DNA of 38,672 nucleotides from a virus: IMG/VR virus record IMGVR_UViG_3300035160_000028, positions 1 to 38,672 of that record. One strand, written 5' to 3'. Below are positions 17,125 to 29,228 of the stretch, piece after piece. Positions within the stretch are counted from its first letter, which is position 1. Every line of letters begins with the position of its first letter. The notes beneath the pieces are model-generated. The model was not told where the DNA came from. It did no database searches and saw only the letters and a program-made list of their open reading frames with translations. The position numbers were made by a program, and so were the translations under genes.

Positions 17125-17858
17125 AATTGAAAACATTCATGAAATTGATTTTTATCGGCCTAATAATCTGCATCGTCCTGCTATGGCACATGATCGCCGG
17201 GGCCGAACAAATCACCCTCCAATGGGACCCGGTTGACGGCGTGGACGGGTACCATATCTATCAAGCGATCCGGGCCGCCAATCCGGATACCGGAGAAGTC
17301 GAGCACTCGTTTGATTACGCCGCGCCGGTCGGAACCGTGGCGCAGGATGTCACATCGTTGGCGGTGGAGCTCCCCGGCGAGCAGGGCGCGGACACAAAAT
17401 ATGTGTTTGTCGCTCGCTCGTATCGCGGCGACGATACGAGCGTGGACTCAAACACCGTGGCTTATGTCGTCTGTCTGGTCCCCCCTTTGGCGGCCACGGA
17501 TCTGGCCGGCGCCTATGACGTGGAAAACGGCGTGATCAATCTGAGCTGGTCCCAGGCGCCCGACGCGCAGGCATGGCGCACGATAAGCCATTGGCTTGTG
17601 TATTACCGTATTGCGGGCGGTGATTGGGTCCCCATTGGGCGGGTAGACTATGGGGCGGACCCGCAGTTAACCGCAGAATTTGATGCCGTGGCGCCGGGAG
17701 AAGCCGCAGACGTGGAGTTTACGGTTGTCACATACCGAAGGTCGGGGGTATACTCCGAAAATAGCTCTATCGTTGCGATAGCTATCGACCGGAGCACATC
17801 CGGCCCGGTGCCCCCGGTTGAAAACTTGAGGGTTGAGATTGAGATTCCCGTGATTTGA
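17121..17858 (+). CDS. Secreted or membrane-anchored fibronectin type III protein
   Basis: A 245-aa protein. Residues 1-28 form a typical Sec signal or anchor: basic start MKLKTFMK, hydrophobic core LIFIGLIICIVLLWHMI, and AGA before the mature end. Two Fn3-like domains follow, the first with ITLQWDPVDGVDGYHIYQ (31-48) and TKYVFVARSYRGDD, the second with GVINLSWSQAPDAQAW and AADVEFTVVTYRRSGVYSENS. The pattern of W/Y core positions is characteristic. The role in the phage is unknown. Options include a superinfection-modifying cell-surface protein or a lysis accessory. It lies in a short operon flanked by oppositely directed genes, as expected of a moron-like block. Confidence 0.75.
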   Translation: MKLKTFMKLIFIGLIICIVLLWHMIAGAEQITLQWDPVDGVDGYHIYQAIRAANPDTGEVEHSFDYAAPVGTVAQDVTSLAVELPGEQGADTKYVFVARSYRGDDTSVDSNTVAYVVCLVPPLAATDLAGAYDVENGVINLSWSQAPDAQAWRTISHWLVYYRIAGGDWVPIGRVDYGADPQLTAEFDAVAPGEAADVEFTVVTYRRSGVYSENSSIVAIAIDRSTSGPVPPVENLRVEIEIPVI

Positions 17859-22868: not shown

Positions 22869-23447
22869 ATGAAAGAAATATTACTTACACCGAATCAAGC
22901 GGCAAAGCGTTTCGGGGTGCATGTTCATACTCTGCGCGAGTGGGACCGTCAAGGCAAGATAAAAACGATCCGCACCGTTGGAGGGGACCGGCGTTATGTC
23001 ATCCCTGTTAACGATGAAATTGAAATCTGTTATTGCCGGGTATCGTCGGCAAAGCAAAAAGACGACCTGCAACGCCAGGTTGAATTCATGGTCGGAAAAT
23101 ATCCAAATGCTCAAATTGTCAAAGACATCGGAAGTGGACTCAACTACAAACGAAAAGGGCTTAAAGCCGTTTTGGAACGGGCAATCGGAGGTGATTGCAT
23201 CACACTTTACATTGCCCATAAAGACAGATTGTGCCGCTTCGGATTTGAACTTATTCAATGGATTATTGAACGATCCGGTGGAAGAATCGTGGTTTTCGAC
23301 GGAACTAAACTTTCACCCGAACAAGAACTTACCCAGGATCTACTCCACATCCTGCATGTCTTTTCCTGCCGAATGCACGGGCTTAGAAGCTATCGTCGCA
23401 AGATCCGTGAGGCTTTCTCCAACAAAGGAGCAAAAGAGAATATTTAG
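22869..23447 (+). CDS. tnpA: IS607-type serine recombinase (TnpA)
   Basis: A 192-aa protein. Residues 5-45 form a MerR-like winged helix (LTPNQAAKRFGVHVHTLREW, then GGDRRYVIP). The recombinase core follows: ICYCRVSSAKQKDDLQRQ with catalytic serine 59, DIGSGLNYKRKGL, then YIAHKDRLCRFGFELIQW. The DNA-binding-first arrangement, with the catalytic domain C-terminal, is specific to the IS607 lineage. It is expected to catalyse excision and insertion with no target specificity beyond a short core. The last 92 nt overlap tnpB in another frame. Confidence 0.93.
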   Translation: MKEILLTPNQAAKRFGVHVHTLREWDRQGKIKTIRTVGGDRRYVIPVNDEIEICYCRVSSAKQKDDLQRQVEFMVGKYPNAQIVKDIGSGLNYKRKGLKAVLERAIGGDCITLYIAHKDRLCRFGFELIQWIIERSGGRIVVFDGTKLSPEQELTQDLLHILHVFSCRMHGLRSYRRKIREAFSNKGAKENI

Positions 23448-24486
23448 ATTCTGGACCGACACGGCAAGGTGGATCTACAACTGGACGTTTGACTATATTC
23501 GGTCATGTGTCGGTTTCGCGCCGACGTGGTACGATATCAAAAAGGAAGCTACCCGCATACTTCCCGCCTGGACAAAGCCGGTCCCGTTTCAGATTAAAGG
23601 TGTTGCCATCAAAGATGCGCTCAAAGCATTTTGGGACGCAAAAGGAAGGCCGAAGTTCAAATCAAGGAAGAATCCGGTTCAATCGTGTTTCATCCCCTCA
23701 TCGGCCATCAAATCCGGTGGGATCTACCCCCGTGTGTCCGGTCCCGGATTGAAATACAACGAAGCGTTACCGGAAAACCCGAAAGACAGCCGCCTTGTCT
23801 GGCGGCATAATTTGTGGCATTTGTCCGTTCCCCGTTTAATGACGATATCCCGTAGCGAGAACCAAGCCGGTGGTATCGCCGCCATTGACCCAGGCGTTCG
23901 GACATTTGCCGCATTCTATAGCCCGTCTGTTTCCGGCAGGATCGGCCATGGCGCGTTTAACCGGATATTCAGATTGCTTTTACATCTGGACAACCTGATA
24001 TCCGACCGGGCAAAAGCCAACCGCCGCCGGTTTAAGTCACTCACAAAAGCAATCCGCAGACTTCAAAAAAGAATCAAATATCTGATTGACGAATTGCACT
24101 GGAAAACCGCCCGGTTTCTTTGCAGCCGGTTTGCCGTGATTCTTCTGCCGACCTATGAAACAAAGCAGATGGTTGACCGTCTTAAAAGAAAGATCCGGTC
24201 AAAAACCGTTCGAAGCATGCTGTCTTTCAGAAATTTTCAATTCAAACTCAGGTTGAAATGGATGGCGCAAAAACTCGGCGTCACCGTGATTGACGTGGAC
24301 GAAAGCTATACCAGTAAAACCCACCCGCAGACCGGCGAAATCAAGAATATCGGTTCCGCGAAGTGGATCAAGTTGTTGGATGGGTCAATGGCAGATCGTG
24401 ATTTGGTTGGAGCGCACAACATTCTGGTCAAGTGGTTGACCGAACGTTGTGCTTTGGGAGATACCCCCGCACAAAAATGTGCGTAA
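23356..24486 (+). CDS. tnpB: IS607-type TnpB nuclease lacking the zinc ribbon
   Basis: A 376-aa protein if started at ATG 23356 inside tnpA; a GTG at 23407 is an alternative. The N-terminal part (VRLSPTKEQKRIFRFWTDTA, ARWIYNWTFDY) is the usual TnpB wedge entry. The split RuvC-like site has D178 (AAIDPGVRTFA), E268 (LLPTYETKQM) and D347 (MADRDLVGAHNIL). Between residues 317 and 347, where TnpB proteins normally carry the CxxC...CxxC zinc ribbon, the sequence reads TSKTHPQTGEIKNIGSAKWI and has no cysteine. TnpB proteins are RNA-guided DNases; the guide RNA normally overlaps the right end. Activity without the ribbon is unproven. Confidence 0.88.
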   Translation: MSFPAECTGLEAIVARSVRLSPTKEQKRIFRFWTDTARWIYNWTFDYIRSCVGFAPTWYDIKKEATRILPAWTKPVPFQIKGVAIKDALKAFWDAKGRPKFKSRKNPVQSCFIPSSAIKSGGIYPRVSGPGLKYNEALPENPKDSRLVWRHNLWHLSVPRLMTISRSENQAGGIAAIDPGVRTFAAFYSPSVSGRIGHGAFNRIFRLLLHLDNLISDRAKANRRRFKSLTKAIRRLQKRIKYLIDELHWKTARFLCSRFAVILLPTYETKQMVDRLKRKIRSKTVRSMLSFRNFQFKLRLKWMAQKLGVTVIDVDESYTSKTHPQTGEIKNIGSAKWIKLLDGSMADRDLVGAHNILVKWLTERCALGDTPAQKCA

Positions 24487-24579: not shown

Positions 24580-24849
24580 ATGCAACTGAAATTTTTCGAT
24601 GCCACGGTTTTAAAAGAGATCGAACTGCGGGCCGAAAACAGCCCGAAAAAAGCCTTCTGGCGCCTGCGCCTGGTCCACCGGCAGGGGCAATATATCATCG
24701 AAAAAGAGAGCGGGGGCGGGGGCAAGGTGCTGGACCGGCGGAGCTGGCCCCAGCGGGATTATGAGCGGGCGGTGGTGGTGTTCGGCAGGAAGGTTGCTGC
24801 AAAGCTAAAGCCCGGAAAGAAAAGGGAATATGTAATAAGTGGTAGGTAA
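24580..24849 (+). CDS. Small basic protein, possible WGR-like domain
   Basis: An 89-aa protein starting behind AAGG. It reads as a short beta domain (MQLKFFDATVLKEIELRAEN, KAFWRLRLVHRQGQYIIEKE) followed by a Gly-rich turn (SGGGGKVLDRRSW) and a helix (YERAVVVFGRKVAAKL) with a Lys-rich tail. The FWRxxxxRxGxxxxE pattern recalls WGR-type nucleic-acid-associated domains, but the W-G-R triad is not intact, so this is tentative. It lies between the IS607 right end and a terminator, at the end of the rightward operon. Confidence 0.58.
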   Translation: MQLKFFDATVLKEIELRAENSPKKAFWRLRLVHRQGQYIIEKESGGGGKVLDRRSWPQRDYERAVVVFGRKVAAKLKPGKKREYVISGR

Positions 24850-25014
24850 AACCTACAAATGTATAGGGAGCAAGACGATAGAAGTTTCACAAACTAAATC
24901 AGTACAGTTTCAAAAAACTGAAAAAAAAACTGAATCTGTACCGGTTTTTTCCCCTTTACAAAATATGTAACCCGGGATTAATCTAATTCCATCAAAGAAT
25001 GCTTACTCCGCAGG

Positions 25015-25047
25015 AAGGGCCGCACCAGCAACGGCCCTTTCTTGTTG
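25015..25047 (+). terminator. Rho-independent terminator after 24580-24849
   Basis: AAGGGCCG (25015-25022) pairs with CGGCCCTT (25032-25039) around CACCAGCAA, followed by TCTTGTT. The eight-base GC-rich stem with a T-rich tail fits an intrinsic terminator. It lies five bases before the CRISPR-like repeat. Confidence 0.7.
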
Positions 25048-25051
25048 GGGC

Positions 25052-25083
25052 GTCGCCACTTGAGAAATGGCGTGGATTGAAAC
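25052..25083 (+). CRISPR. Solitary type I-C-like CRISPR repeat unit, no array
   Basis: A single 32-base block begins GTCGCC and ends GTGGATTGAAAC, the start, end and length typical of type I-C repeats. The inner arms CGCCA (25054-25058) and TGGCG (25068-25072) can form the repeat stem. No second copy, no leader and no cas gene is present in the window, so it is not an array. Twenty-nine bases downstream a strong intrinsic terminator follows. Solitary repeat units of this design in phages are known to act as RNA anti-CRISPRs (Racr). The assignment to type I-C is from recalled consensus and has not been aligned by computer. Confidence 0.7.
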
Positions 25084-25112
25084 AAACAAACAAGCTAACG
25101 CTCTTTTAAATA

Positions 25113-25145
25113 ACAAAAGCCCGGTCATAGGGACCAGGCTTTTGT
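25113..25145 (+). terminator. Strong bidirectional terminator after CRISPR-like unit
   Basis: ACAAAAGCC (25113-25121) pairs with GGCTTTTGT (25137-25145), extended inward by GGTC/GACC after one mismatch. The A-rich and T-rich flanks of the stem make it work in either direction. It would end a short RNA that carries the CRISPR-like repeat. Confidence 0.75.
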
Positions 25146-25295
25146 CAATAATCATCTTCTAAAACCGAAGTGAAAGTCTTCCGCTCAAAGATTTCTTTCA
25201 CTTCAGGCAAAATCTTAGTTACCGCTGCTGCTGACCCTCTTAGACCGAACAGACGAACCGTAACTGACTCCTGAAATATCCCCACTGAGCTGATA

Positions 25296-26333
25296 ATGTC
25301 AAGTCAAGATTTTGCCGGAAAGGACACCTTGACAATATCAAAACTCGCAGAACCCAATAAAATCAATGAACTTTTAAAATCAAACAACATCCCTTCAGTC
25401 AGCAAAAAATCTTTATTCAATCCGGTATATAAGGGCACGAAAGGGGCTTTAGGACAAATTAACGGGTTTTTCGCCCGGAGGCACCGTCTATGCGGCGGAA
25501 CTATCATAACCGTTACACATGGAGAAATCGCCGAAGAAACCGGATATGCATCTCGGACAGCGCAACGGATAATTAAAAAGCTCGAAGCAATGGGGCGTTT
25601 GATAGTTTTACGGGGTTGGAAAAATTCGTATTTATATTTGCCTGAAAATATCGGAATCGAATCATGGCTTGAAAATTTCAAGTTAAAATTCGGCCTCGAT
25701 TTGAGGACTCAGATGTGGGTGGATACAGGACAAAATGTCGTGAACCCCGAACCTGAATCTATACGACATAATGTCGTTAACAATACGACAGAATGTCGTG
25801 AAGATGACCTATCTTATAAAGAGAGTTTCAAAGAGTCTAAGACCGACCTCCCTGAAAAACCCCCCGAAAACCCGCCGCCGGAAACCGACCTTGACCGGAT
25901 AAAAGACGCTGCCCCTAAAGTATGTTATAGGATCAAGAACCTTGATGAAAAAATCAAAGAATCAATCAAAAGAAATGGATTCGAATATACCCTTTGGGCG
26001 GCTAAAGAATCCCATGATGGGAATATAAAATATCGTCTTTTCGAGGACATGATGAAAAACGGCAAGGCTAAATACGATAAATTTGAAAAGCAGAGGACAC
26101 GCAAGGCTGAGGCTGAGGCGATTCAAGAAAGCCGGGAGCATCAAAAGGAGATCGAATTTATGGCAAAGGTTTTTAAGCCCTTTGCTTTTAAAGAGTGTGA
26201 AATTGATTTTCATGCTAAAAAATCTACATTTTTAAAGGCTTTATCATCAACTAAGGTCCTATTCGATAGATTTTCAAATATGACCGATACCCAGCTAAAA
26301 GCAACGAATGAGTTTAGGAATTTTAAAGCATGA
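25296..26333 (+). CDS. Winged-helix protein, probable replication initiator
   Basis: A 345-aa protein (ATG 25296; TTG 25329 with AAAGGA upstream is an alternative that gives 334 aa). Residues about 60-125 form a winged helix-turn-helix (GTIITVTHGEIAEETGYASR, TAQRIIKKLEAMGRLIVLRGW), a layout seen in phage replication proteins. A Pro/Glu-rich linker (135-205) follows and then a helical C-terminal domain rich in Lys and Glu. The DNA for residues 144-168 of the linker contains three palindromic repeats (25727-25799), as in lambda O, whose gene holds the origin. The product probably binds these repeats. The overlap with the next gene is 4 nt. Confidence 0.7.
   Translation: MSSQDFAGKDTLTISKLAEPNKINELLKSNNIPSVSKKSLFNPVYKGTKGALGQINGFFARRHRLCGGTIITVTHGEIAEETGYASRTAQRIIKKLEAMGRLIVLRGWKNSYLYLPENIGIESWLENFKLKFGLDLRTQMWVDTGQNVVNPEPESIRHNVVNNTTECREDDLSYKESFKESKTDLPEKPPENPPPETDLDRIKDAAPKVCYRIKNLDEKIKESIKRNGFEYTLWAAKESHDGNIKYRLFEDMMKNGKAKYDKFEKQRTRKAEAEAIQESREHQKEIEFMAKVFKPFAFKECEIDFHAKKSTFLKALSSTKVLFDRFSNMTDTQLKATNEFRNFKA
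25727..25799. repeat. Three iteron-like 15-bp palindromes in the initiator gene
   Basis: ACGACATAATGTCGT is a perfect 7-1-7 palindrome at 25763-25777. At 25785-25799 it recurs as ACGACAGAATGTCGT (one mismatch in symmetry), and at 25727-25741 as a degenerate copy ending ATGTCGT. The exact ATGTCGT half-site lies at 25735, 25771 and 25793. The spacing between the second and third is 22 bp and between the first and second 36 bp. It may be a replication origin or an autoregulatory operator. Confidence 0.68.
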
Positions 26334-26932
26334 AATATATTAATATTGCTGGTGATACTGATGGGTGGTCAACAGCATTAAACCCCCCTGATGAAGATGG
26401 CAAAATAAGTGTTGTTTCATCTACATGTGAAAATGAGTCTTTACCGACAAAGATGTTTTCATGTGATTTAGAAGAAATGATATTTGATTATTTTGAGTAT
26501 GTTTTTGTTTTTGGAGATGAGGCAGATACGCTATTAAAGCCCATGAAAAATATTTTAGATAGGGCGATTAAAAAATGTGAAGAACTATTAAAAAGAAAAT
26601 TAGGCTCACCTATTGAAAGTATGTTTTGGAACGTTGTTTCAGATGAGGAATCAGAAGGGTTTATATTCGGGTTAATTTATCAGCATAAAGTTGAAAATTA
26701 TATTATTGATTTCGCTTTCAAACATTATGATTTCAAACTTGCGATAGAATTAGATGGGCATGATTATCATAAGACTAAGAAACAGCGTACATATGATGCA
26801 AAAAGGGCAAGGAAATTATCTGAATTGGGATGGGAAGTGATAAGATTTACAGGATCAGAAATATTTAAAGACAGTTTAGGTTGTGCCTTAGAGGTAAAAA
26901 AAATAATCTATAATAAAACAGGGGAAGTATGA
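26330..26932 (+). CDS. DUF559-type PD-(D/E)XK endonuclease-like protein
   Basis: A 200-aa protein, clearly AT-rich relative to its neighbours. The C-terminal half (residues about 90-195) matches the Vsr/DUF559 endonuclease-like fold: SPIESMFWN supplies the first Glu, YIIDFAFKHYDFKLAIELDG supplies the Asp and the ELDG motif, HDYHKTKKQRTYDAKRARKL the basic helix, and LGWEVIRFTGSEIF the last strand. The N-terminal half is acidic and unassigned. Such proteins are often encoded by phages and mobile elements; a nicking or debranching role in phage DNA metabolism is plausible. The low GC content suggests recent acquisition. Starts overlap by 4 nt on both sides. Confidence 0.75.
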   Translation: MKYINIAGDTDGWSTALNPPDEDGKISVVSSTCENESLPTKMFSCDLEEMIFDYFEYVFVFGDEADTLLKPMKNILDRAIKKCEELLKRKLGSPIESMFWNVVSDEESEGFIFGLIYQHKVENYIIDFAFKHYDFKLAIELDGHDYHKTKKQRTYDAKRARKLSELGWEVIRFTGSEIFKDSLGCALEVKKIIYNKTGEV

Positions 26933-28076: not shown

Positions 28077-29156
28077 CTATGCCGCCGCTGCGTGGGGCTG
28101 GTTGACGACAGCCCGGCGGCCAATATTGACCGCCGCCACATTGTCGGCGGGGGCAACGTAACCGCAGGCGCGACAACAAAAGATATCCCGGCTTTTCCGG
28201 TTGGCTTTTTCGGTATGGCCGCACTCACAGCATTCGCGGCTGGTGTTTCTTGGGTCGACCAGCACAACACAAACCCCGGCAAGCACGGCTTTATAGGAGA
28301 CAAATTGAAGCAATTGGTAAAAACTCCAAGCATTATGTTGCGCACGTTGAGACTTTCTAACCGTTGTCTTTTCACGGATTCCCTTAAGGTCTTCAAGGGC
28401 AATGCCGTATCCAAGTGCCTTAGCCTTCGCAACAATCTGTTTGGAAATTCTGTGGTTCTCATTTCTGGCGAAGCGTGCCTCTTTGCGCTTGCGCTTTTTA
28501 AGCAGGCGCTTTGCCGATTTAGTGCCTTTGCTTTGCAGTTTCTTGCGCAAGCGGCGATGTCTCGCACGCAGTCCGTTCATCTGGTCGCCGGAGTGGGTTT
28601 CACCGGCAGAATCGACGGCAATGTTTTTGATGCCCAGGTCAACGCCAAGAAAATCTTTCGGCGTTGTTTTCGGTGGTTCGGGAAAATCGATCACAAGAAG
28701 CAGGTAAAAAGATCCGTTTTTCAGAATCAAATCGGCTTGTCCCGCGACTCTGCGACCGGCAAGCACTCCCCGGTGGTATTCACTGATTATCATCGGGACC
28801 AGAATGCGACCGGAAAGTGTGAGCAAAGATACCCTGTCAACGCCTTTAAACGCCATGATGCGTTGATCATAAACCATTGCGCCGGTATCTTTGAAAGTGT
28901 GCAGGGTTTTTTTGGTCGCTTTGTAGCTTTCGCAAACCTTTCCGATGGCGCGAACCGTCATTTGGGAAGAAAGGCTAAAGTCTTTGCGGATATCGTAATA
29001 GCAAAGCTTGTGGACGTTGAACTTGGAAAATGTTTTGGATTCAAATGCAAGCTTACTGATGTAATTGCAAGCCTGATTGAATCTTGCCATTGTTTCCAAA
29101 AGCGCCTGGTGTTGTTGGGTATCAACAACAAGTTTTATTTTCGCGGTACAAAGCAT
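28077..29156 (-). CDS. tnpB: TnpB RNA-guided nuclease (IS200/IS605 type)
   Basis: A 359-aa protein starting at ATG 29156 (MLCTAKIKLVVDTQQHQALL); the ATG at 29171 is less usual for the family. RuvC-like residues are D173 (FLGVDLGIKNIAVDS), E255 (IALEDLKGIREK) and D338 (PADNVAAVNIG). The zinc ribbon is intact: CCECGH (C309, C312) and CCRACG (C328, C331). The arginine-rich bridge lies at 198-232. TnpB cuts DNA next to a target-adjacent motif under guidance of an RNA from the element's end and thereby keeps the element from being lost. It is not closely similar to the IS607 TnpB in the same genome. Confidence 0.93.
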   Translation of the reverse strand: MLCTAKIKLVVDTQQHQALLETMARFNQACNYISKLAFESKTFSKFNVHKLCYYDIRKDFSLSSQMTVRAIGKVCESYKATKKTLHTFKDTGAMVYDQRIMAFKGVDRVSLLTLSGRILVPMIISEYHRGVLAGRRVAGQADLILKNGSFYLLLVIDFPEPPKTTPKDFLGVDLGIKNIAVDSAGETHSGDQMNGLRARHRRLRKKLQSKGTKSAKRLLKKRKRKEARFARNENHRISKQIVAKAKALGYGIALEDLKGIREKTTVRKSQRAQHNAWSFYQLLQFVSYKAVLAGVCVVLVDPRNTSRECCECGHTEKANRKSRDIFCCRACGYVAPADNVAAVNIGRRAVVNQPHAAAA

Positions 29157-29228
29157 AATAGTTCGTATCACAAAACATTGACTAAAACAATCAATATATC
29201 AACAGGAACATTTAAACGAAAGGGGGTG

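Follow-up and report, generated by a model that had tools for sequence, protein, structure and literature searches.

What would a phage do with one CRISPR repeat? The locus studied here raises this question with a 32-nt unit, GTCGCCACTTGAGAAATGGCGTGGATTGAAAC, on the + strand at positions 25052-25083 of the window, by which we mean the whole stretch of DNA analysed, an entire virus record of 38,672 bp. A sequence-only reading had described it as a solitary type I-C-like repeat and proposed it as a candidate RNA anti-CRISPR (Racr), with a sequence, coordinates and strand that we find to be exact. When up to 3 mismatches are allowed the whole record holds one copy, and the 3' end of the unit, GTGGATTGAAAC, has no further site at up to 1 mismatch, which rules out membership of an array or mini-array; a two-mismatch site at 17442 is within chance expectation. 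It fits the description of a solitary repeat unit (SRU), a complete repeat that has no similar one within 100 bp, and no matching direct repeat was found near it. It lies outside genes, inside a 446-bp gap (24850-25295) flanked by open reading frames at 24580-24849 and 25296-26333, and no cas genes were found among the proteins scanned, in agreement with the earlier description of a unit standing alone in non-coding DNA with neither a second repeat nor cas genes.

The frame of type I-C repeats, GTCGC...GCGTGGATTGAAAC, is complete in the unit, including the Cas5 cut site and the 11-nt handle. From the dinucleotide composition of the window, the joint occurrence of GTCGC and GCGTGGATTGAAAC at exactly this distance has an expectation of 5e-7 per window, so a chance match was ruled out. 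Besides this frame the unit has the length of about 32 nt and the stem closing at positions 3 and 21 that define a type I-C repeat, and it matches our I-C comparison set in its GTCGC start, C3-G21 closure, GCG stem base, TGGATTGAAAC handle and 32-nt length. The cleavage site of type I-C Cas5 is the 3' base of the stem, and the enzyme afterwards remains on the 11-nt handle. In the unit the handle TGGATTGAAAC occupies 25073-25083 (+), and the predicted Cas5 cut directly 5' of it presumably falls between 25072 and 25073.

The stem CGCCA/TGGCG pointed out in the sequence-only reading is present in all of its five pairs, from C3-G21 to A7-T17. It is followed by a C8.A16 mismatch and then by the pairs T9-A15 and T10-A14, and a single transition would yield a perfect 8-pair stem. 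The fold is weak, the isolated unit reaching only -6.0 kcal/mol (z -0.9), and for this reason it constitutes no evidence when taken alone; since it is unremarkable, it is the sequence and not the folding energy that supports the I-C identification. The minus strand of the unit folds better (-9.3 kcal/mol) only since the C.A mismatch becomes G.U, and it was given no weight because the + strand is the crRNA sense. An Rfam search gave no match.

The portal, coat, terminase, head-closure and adaptor proteins of the virus are P22-like. Its closest named portals are those of two circular spring-metagenome phages and of Pseudomonas phage PfAn1. Other phage genes encode RecT, an SbcC-like ATPase and a cytosine methylase; relatives of the portal occur in spring-metagenome and gammaproteobacterial phages, and those of the SbcC-like protein mostly in Bacillota phages. 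There is firm support for the description of the locus as a phage-borne, solitary type I-C-like repeat. An IS607-type element (TnpA at 22869-23447, TnpB ending at 24486) lies upstream of the 89-aa gene 24580-24849, and no close plasmid relative of its TnpB was found. A second, lone TnpB-like gene without an adjacent transposase is located at 28077-29171 on the minus strand. On the other side of the gap, a direct search with the protein encoded at 25296-26333, a replication-type gene, gave no relatives; it is adjoined by a DUF559/MTES_1575-type nuclease-like protein (26330-26932), a relative of which is encoded in one of the related phages described below (L202).

Three relatives with the same leader were found in IMG/VR, namely L010/L204 (terminase 88%), L043/L203 (terminase 80%) and L202 (SbcC-like 64%), none of which carries the IS607 element at that site. 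Each of them has, after a homologue of the 89-aa protein, first a promoter, then two terminator-like hairpins in succession and lastly a conserved block of about 130 bp that precedes the next gene, with small open reading frames between the 89-aa homologue and the promoter in L010 and L043. The promoter of the window, TTTACA-18-TAATCT (24955-24984, +), had been put forward as a weak candidate; near-identical boxes recur at the same position in the relatives (TTTACA-17-TAATCT in L010, TTTACA-17-TAACCT in L202 and TAGACA-17-TAATCT in L043), which makes it a conserved leader promoter. Transcription is predicted to start near 24991, about 60 nt upstream of the unit.

The two hairpins noted earlier on either side of the unit are real inverted repeats (25012-25042 and 25113-25145). 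Hairpin 1, terminator-like and directly upstream of the repeat, spans 25012-25047 (+), with arms at 25012-25022 and 25032-25042, and stands in the same place in L010, L202 and L043. Hairpin 2, also terminator-like, spans 25113-25145 (+) with 14-nt arms that are 93% complementary, and has an equivalent in all three relatives. As the promoter recurs in all four phages, the repeat lies within a conserved leader, between two terminator-like hairpins. The concern that the unit would need a promoter of its own is thus largely answered, and what remains of it is that read-through of hairpin 1 would still be required. The region 25073-25150 folds with a z of -3.75. Between the repeat and hairpin 2 runs an A-rich linker, AAACAAACAAGCTAACGCTCTTTTAAATA (25084-25112, +), a possible dummy spacer, so that the handle is separated from the arm of hairpin 2 by 29 nt and from its GC core at 25119 by 35 nt, a distance that is spacer-sized and mostly unstructured.

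Among the four phages with this leader, only the window carries the repeat between its two hairpins. Since the relatives share the leader without it, the repeat counts as accessory to a leader that is itself conserved; the idea that it is an old feature of this phage group is unsupported. The conserved non-coding block itself lies upstream of the replication-type gene (25165-25340 in the window, 9768-9940 in L202, 4090-4250 in L043 and 5317-5530 in L010), and a pattern built on it retrieved no further relatives. It contains two predicted stems in which 7 of the 31 predicted pairs change on both sides, in a comparison of four sequences only, and the overall covariation term is not favourable; a replication origin or a structured leader RNA are both conceivable functions of the block. 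A short way before the conserved promoter, repeated or inverted motifs are found, GTACAG in the window (24885-24950) and in L010 (5110-5175) and TTGCATTTTTTGCAACGTC in L202 (9555-9615), which are possibly operators.

An RNA anti-CRISPR is a small RNA that Cas proteins bind or process and that inhibits interference, and it calls for a host whose CRISPR-Cas system is of the matching subtype. The exact unit is absent from 84,980 species genomes, and no cognate repeat was found in them under the patterns used, by which repeats differing in their 3' end or stem would be missed. The stem pattern GTCGCCAN{8,10}TGGCGTGGATTGAAAC occurs in only three metagenome-assembled genomes (MAGs) among these 84,980, assigned to Anaerolineae, Lentisphaeria and Clostridiales, with a different loop in each; in these three MAGs and in 301 genomes of the phylum of the Anaerolineae MAG, there was no match to the unit at up to 3 mismatches. 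The 32-nt form of the stem pattern was found in no other IMG/VR contig. The best similarity of the unit to any I-C repeat compared was 25/32 (78%), in a comparison that lay outside the SRUFinder database.

Solitary I-C repeats are common in IMG/VR. A scan with the pattern GTCGCN{12,15}GCGTGGATTGAAAC gave at least 119 stretches and, among the matches listed, at least 85 non-redundant solitary I-C repeats, the unit of the window being excluded from this number (examples are found in L121 at 7415, L175 at 1303, L081 at 3851, L100 at 358 and L116 at 569). Among the matches listed, AAAC directly follows 11 of the 85 solitary units, against 0.47 expected from local composition, and none of 86 array repeats (Fisher p 3e-4), rates which are indicative, as the set was selected by its exact 3' end and the signature was counted in the same data in which it was first noticed. 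The unit of the window is followed by AAACAAACAAGC, and the same twelve bases are present in an unrelated phage (L121/L186). An (AAAC)5AAGC track occurs in L175 and L226/L230, and a AAACAAAC track in L100 and L116/L163. No such track was seen at any of the array ends compared, and derivation of the track from array ends was rejected on this ground. In L226 (1966-2000) and L230 (11025-11059), contigs of 129 and 279 kb, a repeat-like unit with the stem CACCAC/GTGGTG and the same GTGGATTGAAAC end was observed. From about position 1670 of L227, two I-C-like repeats lie about 70 nt apart with an AAAC track after each, possibly a phage mini-array with the same signature.

These observations bear on the possibility that the unit is an inert relic, either copied from a host array or left over from a phage mini-array, with no present function. 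Such an origin would fit the presence of the repeat in one of the four phages with the leader, its stem mismatch and the lack of a matching host repeat in the genomes searched, and the IS607 element that entered just upstream indicates that the region takes insertions. However, the whole I-C frame, the stem base and the handle are unmutated, the unit is placed in a conserved leader predicted to be transcribed, and the AAAC track is common to solitary units that are otherwise unrelated, while none of the array ends compared shows it. We consider a relic possible but unlikely.

Solitary I-C repeats (L081-L199) are often found just upstream of the ribosome-binding site and start codon of a phage gene. 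Among the matches listed, an RBS-like motif and a start codon lie within 60 nt of 29 of 85 solitary units, as compared to 13 of 88 array repeats, rates that are again indicative. This frequency, together with the position of the unit in a two-hairpin leader before 25296, could point to a Cas-responsive switch. Cleavage at the repeat by host Cas5 would then sever the leader of the downstream operon and alter expression, here that of the replication-type gene 25296-26333 or elsewhere that of the phage genes that follow the other units. Yet between the unit and the gene stand hairpin 2 and about 150 nt, and the relatives retain the leader without the unit, so that such a switch seems improbable at this locus. 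It is compatible with an anti-CRISPR function, the two not being mutually exclusive.

The order of handle, spacer-sized stretch and 3' hairpin is also that of a crRNA, and the 29-35 nt after the repeat might serve as a spacer that directs the type I-C machinery of the host at a rival element or lowers the expression of cas genes. Mini-arrays carried by viruses and aimed at other viruses have been described (PMC11656645), and Cas-dependent repression has been mentioned (PMC10651486). The stretch is, however, of low complexity and gave no significant match when compared with 50,697 phages (best E 0.1) and 72,556 plasmids (best E 1), which disfavours the linker as a guide, and an AAAC track common to unrelated phages is unexpected of one; we hold a one-repeat guide to be very improbable. 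The idea of an attachment or recombination site that looks like a host CRISPR repeat is hardly credible and was rejected: repeat-like sequences mediating viral integration into CRISPR arrays have been mentioned (PMC10651486), but no phage integrase was found among the proteins scanned, the sole recombinase being the IS607 transposase.

The reading that we prefer, with a probability of roughly 60%, is that this phage-borne solitary type I-C repeat works as an RNA anti-CRISPR. The part of the repeat read by Cas5 (stem base, cut site and handle) is intact, the unit is solitary with neither array nor cas genes, a conserved promoter stands upstream and a hairpin downstream, and the AAAC-rich 3' track is common to other solitary units, a class of repeat that viral contigs often contain. 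Against it stand the lack of a cognate repeat under the patterns used, with a best I-C similarity of 25/32; hairpin 1, which may halt transcription on its way from promoter to repeat; the C.A stem mismatch with its weak fold; and the three relatives without the repeat. Nor was an acr or aca gene recognised near the unit, in libraries that cover Acr proteins poorly; the vicinity of acr genes is frequent among RNA anti-CRISPRs but supports such an assignment without defining it. The earlier proposal of an RNA anti-CRISPR stands as the best explanation, the unit being a candidate only.

There is a precedent in RacrIC1 of a Bifidobacterium pseudocatenulatum prophage, a single I-C unit that restored the infectivity of a targeted phage (PMC10651486), and a single I-C unit can therefore block type I-C interference. 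Like the unit in the window, RacrIC1 is a single type I-C unit in a phage with no array, and the proposed target is in both cases the type I-C Cas proteins. It differs in lying 11 nt downstream of acrIC5, in one bicistronic RNA, and in having been tested (PMC10651486), whereas our unit, known here from its sequence, has no recognised acr gene beside it and is located in a leader between two hairpins. With RacrIF1 of a Thiocystis violascens prophage, a stand-alone small non-coding RNA, our unit shares the single repeat, the intergenic location and the predicted transcription from a promoter of its own; RacrIF1 is, however, of type I-F, in which Cas6f remains bound to the stem-loop upstream and the RNA on that side is coated by Cas7f (PMC10651486).

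SRUFinder lists 2,103 solitary repeat units on viral sequences (PMC10651486), which like ours are solitary, intergenic, viral and repeat-like. Its rule requires a unit to match a known CRISPR repeat with 90% identity or more across 90% of that repeat (PMC10651486), in contrast to the 25/32 that was the best found for our unit among the I-C repeats compared. Virus-borne CRISPR mini-arrays (PMC11656645) likewise consist of virus-borne repeats that rely on host Cas proteins, but they are defined by at least two repeats and a targeting spacer, neither of which was found in the window. Solitary I-C repeats are common in IMG/VR and RacrIC1 is published; the unit is a good candidate for a further member of the known solitary-repeat or Racr kind and not for a new kind, with RacrIC1 as its nearest tested relative.

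For an RNA anti-CRISPR at this locus, the following course may be envisaged. During infection the leader promoter would drive synthesis of a short non-coding RNA, about 155-160 nt long and terminated at hairpin 2, provided that RNA polymerase passes hairpin 1. Type I-C repeats are processed by Cas5 (PMC10651486), and the host enzyme would bind the leader RNA and cut it after 25072. The product would consist of the handle, a largely unstructured 29-35-nt dummy spacer and, at the 3' end, a hairpin; its layout would be that of a complete I-C crRNA, for which no target was found. Cas5, and then Cas7 and Cas8, would most likely be drawn off real crRNAs by titration. The spacer-sized distance of 29-35 nt from handle to hairpin is what suggests such a mimic of a whole crRNA with a dummy spacer. 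As Cas5 cuts and then stays on the handle, the decoy part would be downstream of the repeat, as opposed to the upstream position in RacrIF1.

More tentatively, and as an idea that we regard as unlikely, phage I-C mimics may share an architecture of their own, in which a repeat hairpin with intact Cas5 site and handle leads into an unstructured (AAAC)n(AAGC) track. The track would be followed in the stand-alone form, as in the window, by a terminator hairpin placed at spacer distance, and in the leader form by the start of a phage gene. Cas5 would then process a transcript, or a phage mRNA, to a dummy crRNA of full length, by which Cascade as a whole would be occupied and not the processing enzyme alone. 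Of the leads obtained, the AAAC track and the spacer-sized gap before the hairpin are the most original, and the signature might separate functional mimics from array remnants.

The locus thus provides a well-anchored candidate for an RNA anti-CRISPR that acts on type I-C, located in the leader of an environmental phage of the P22-like type. Its absence from three relatives with the same leader permits natural comparisons, and the comparison set points to a testable difference between I-C mimics and the I-F model.
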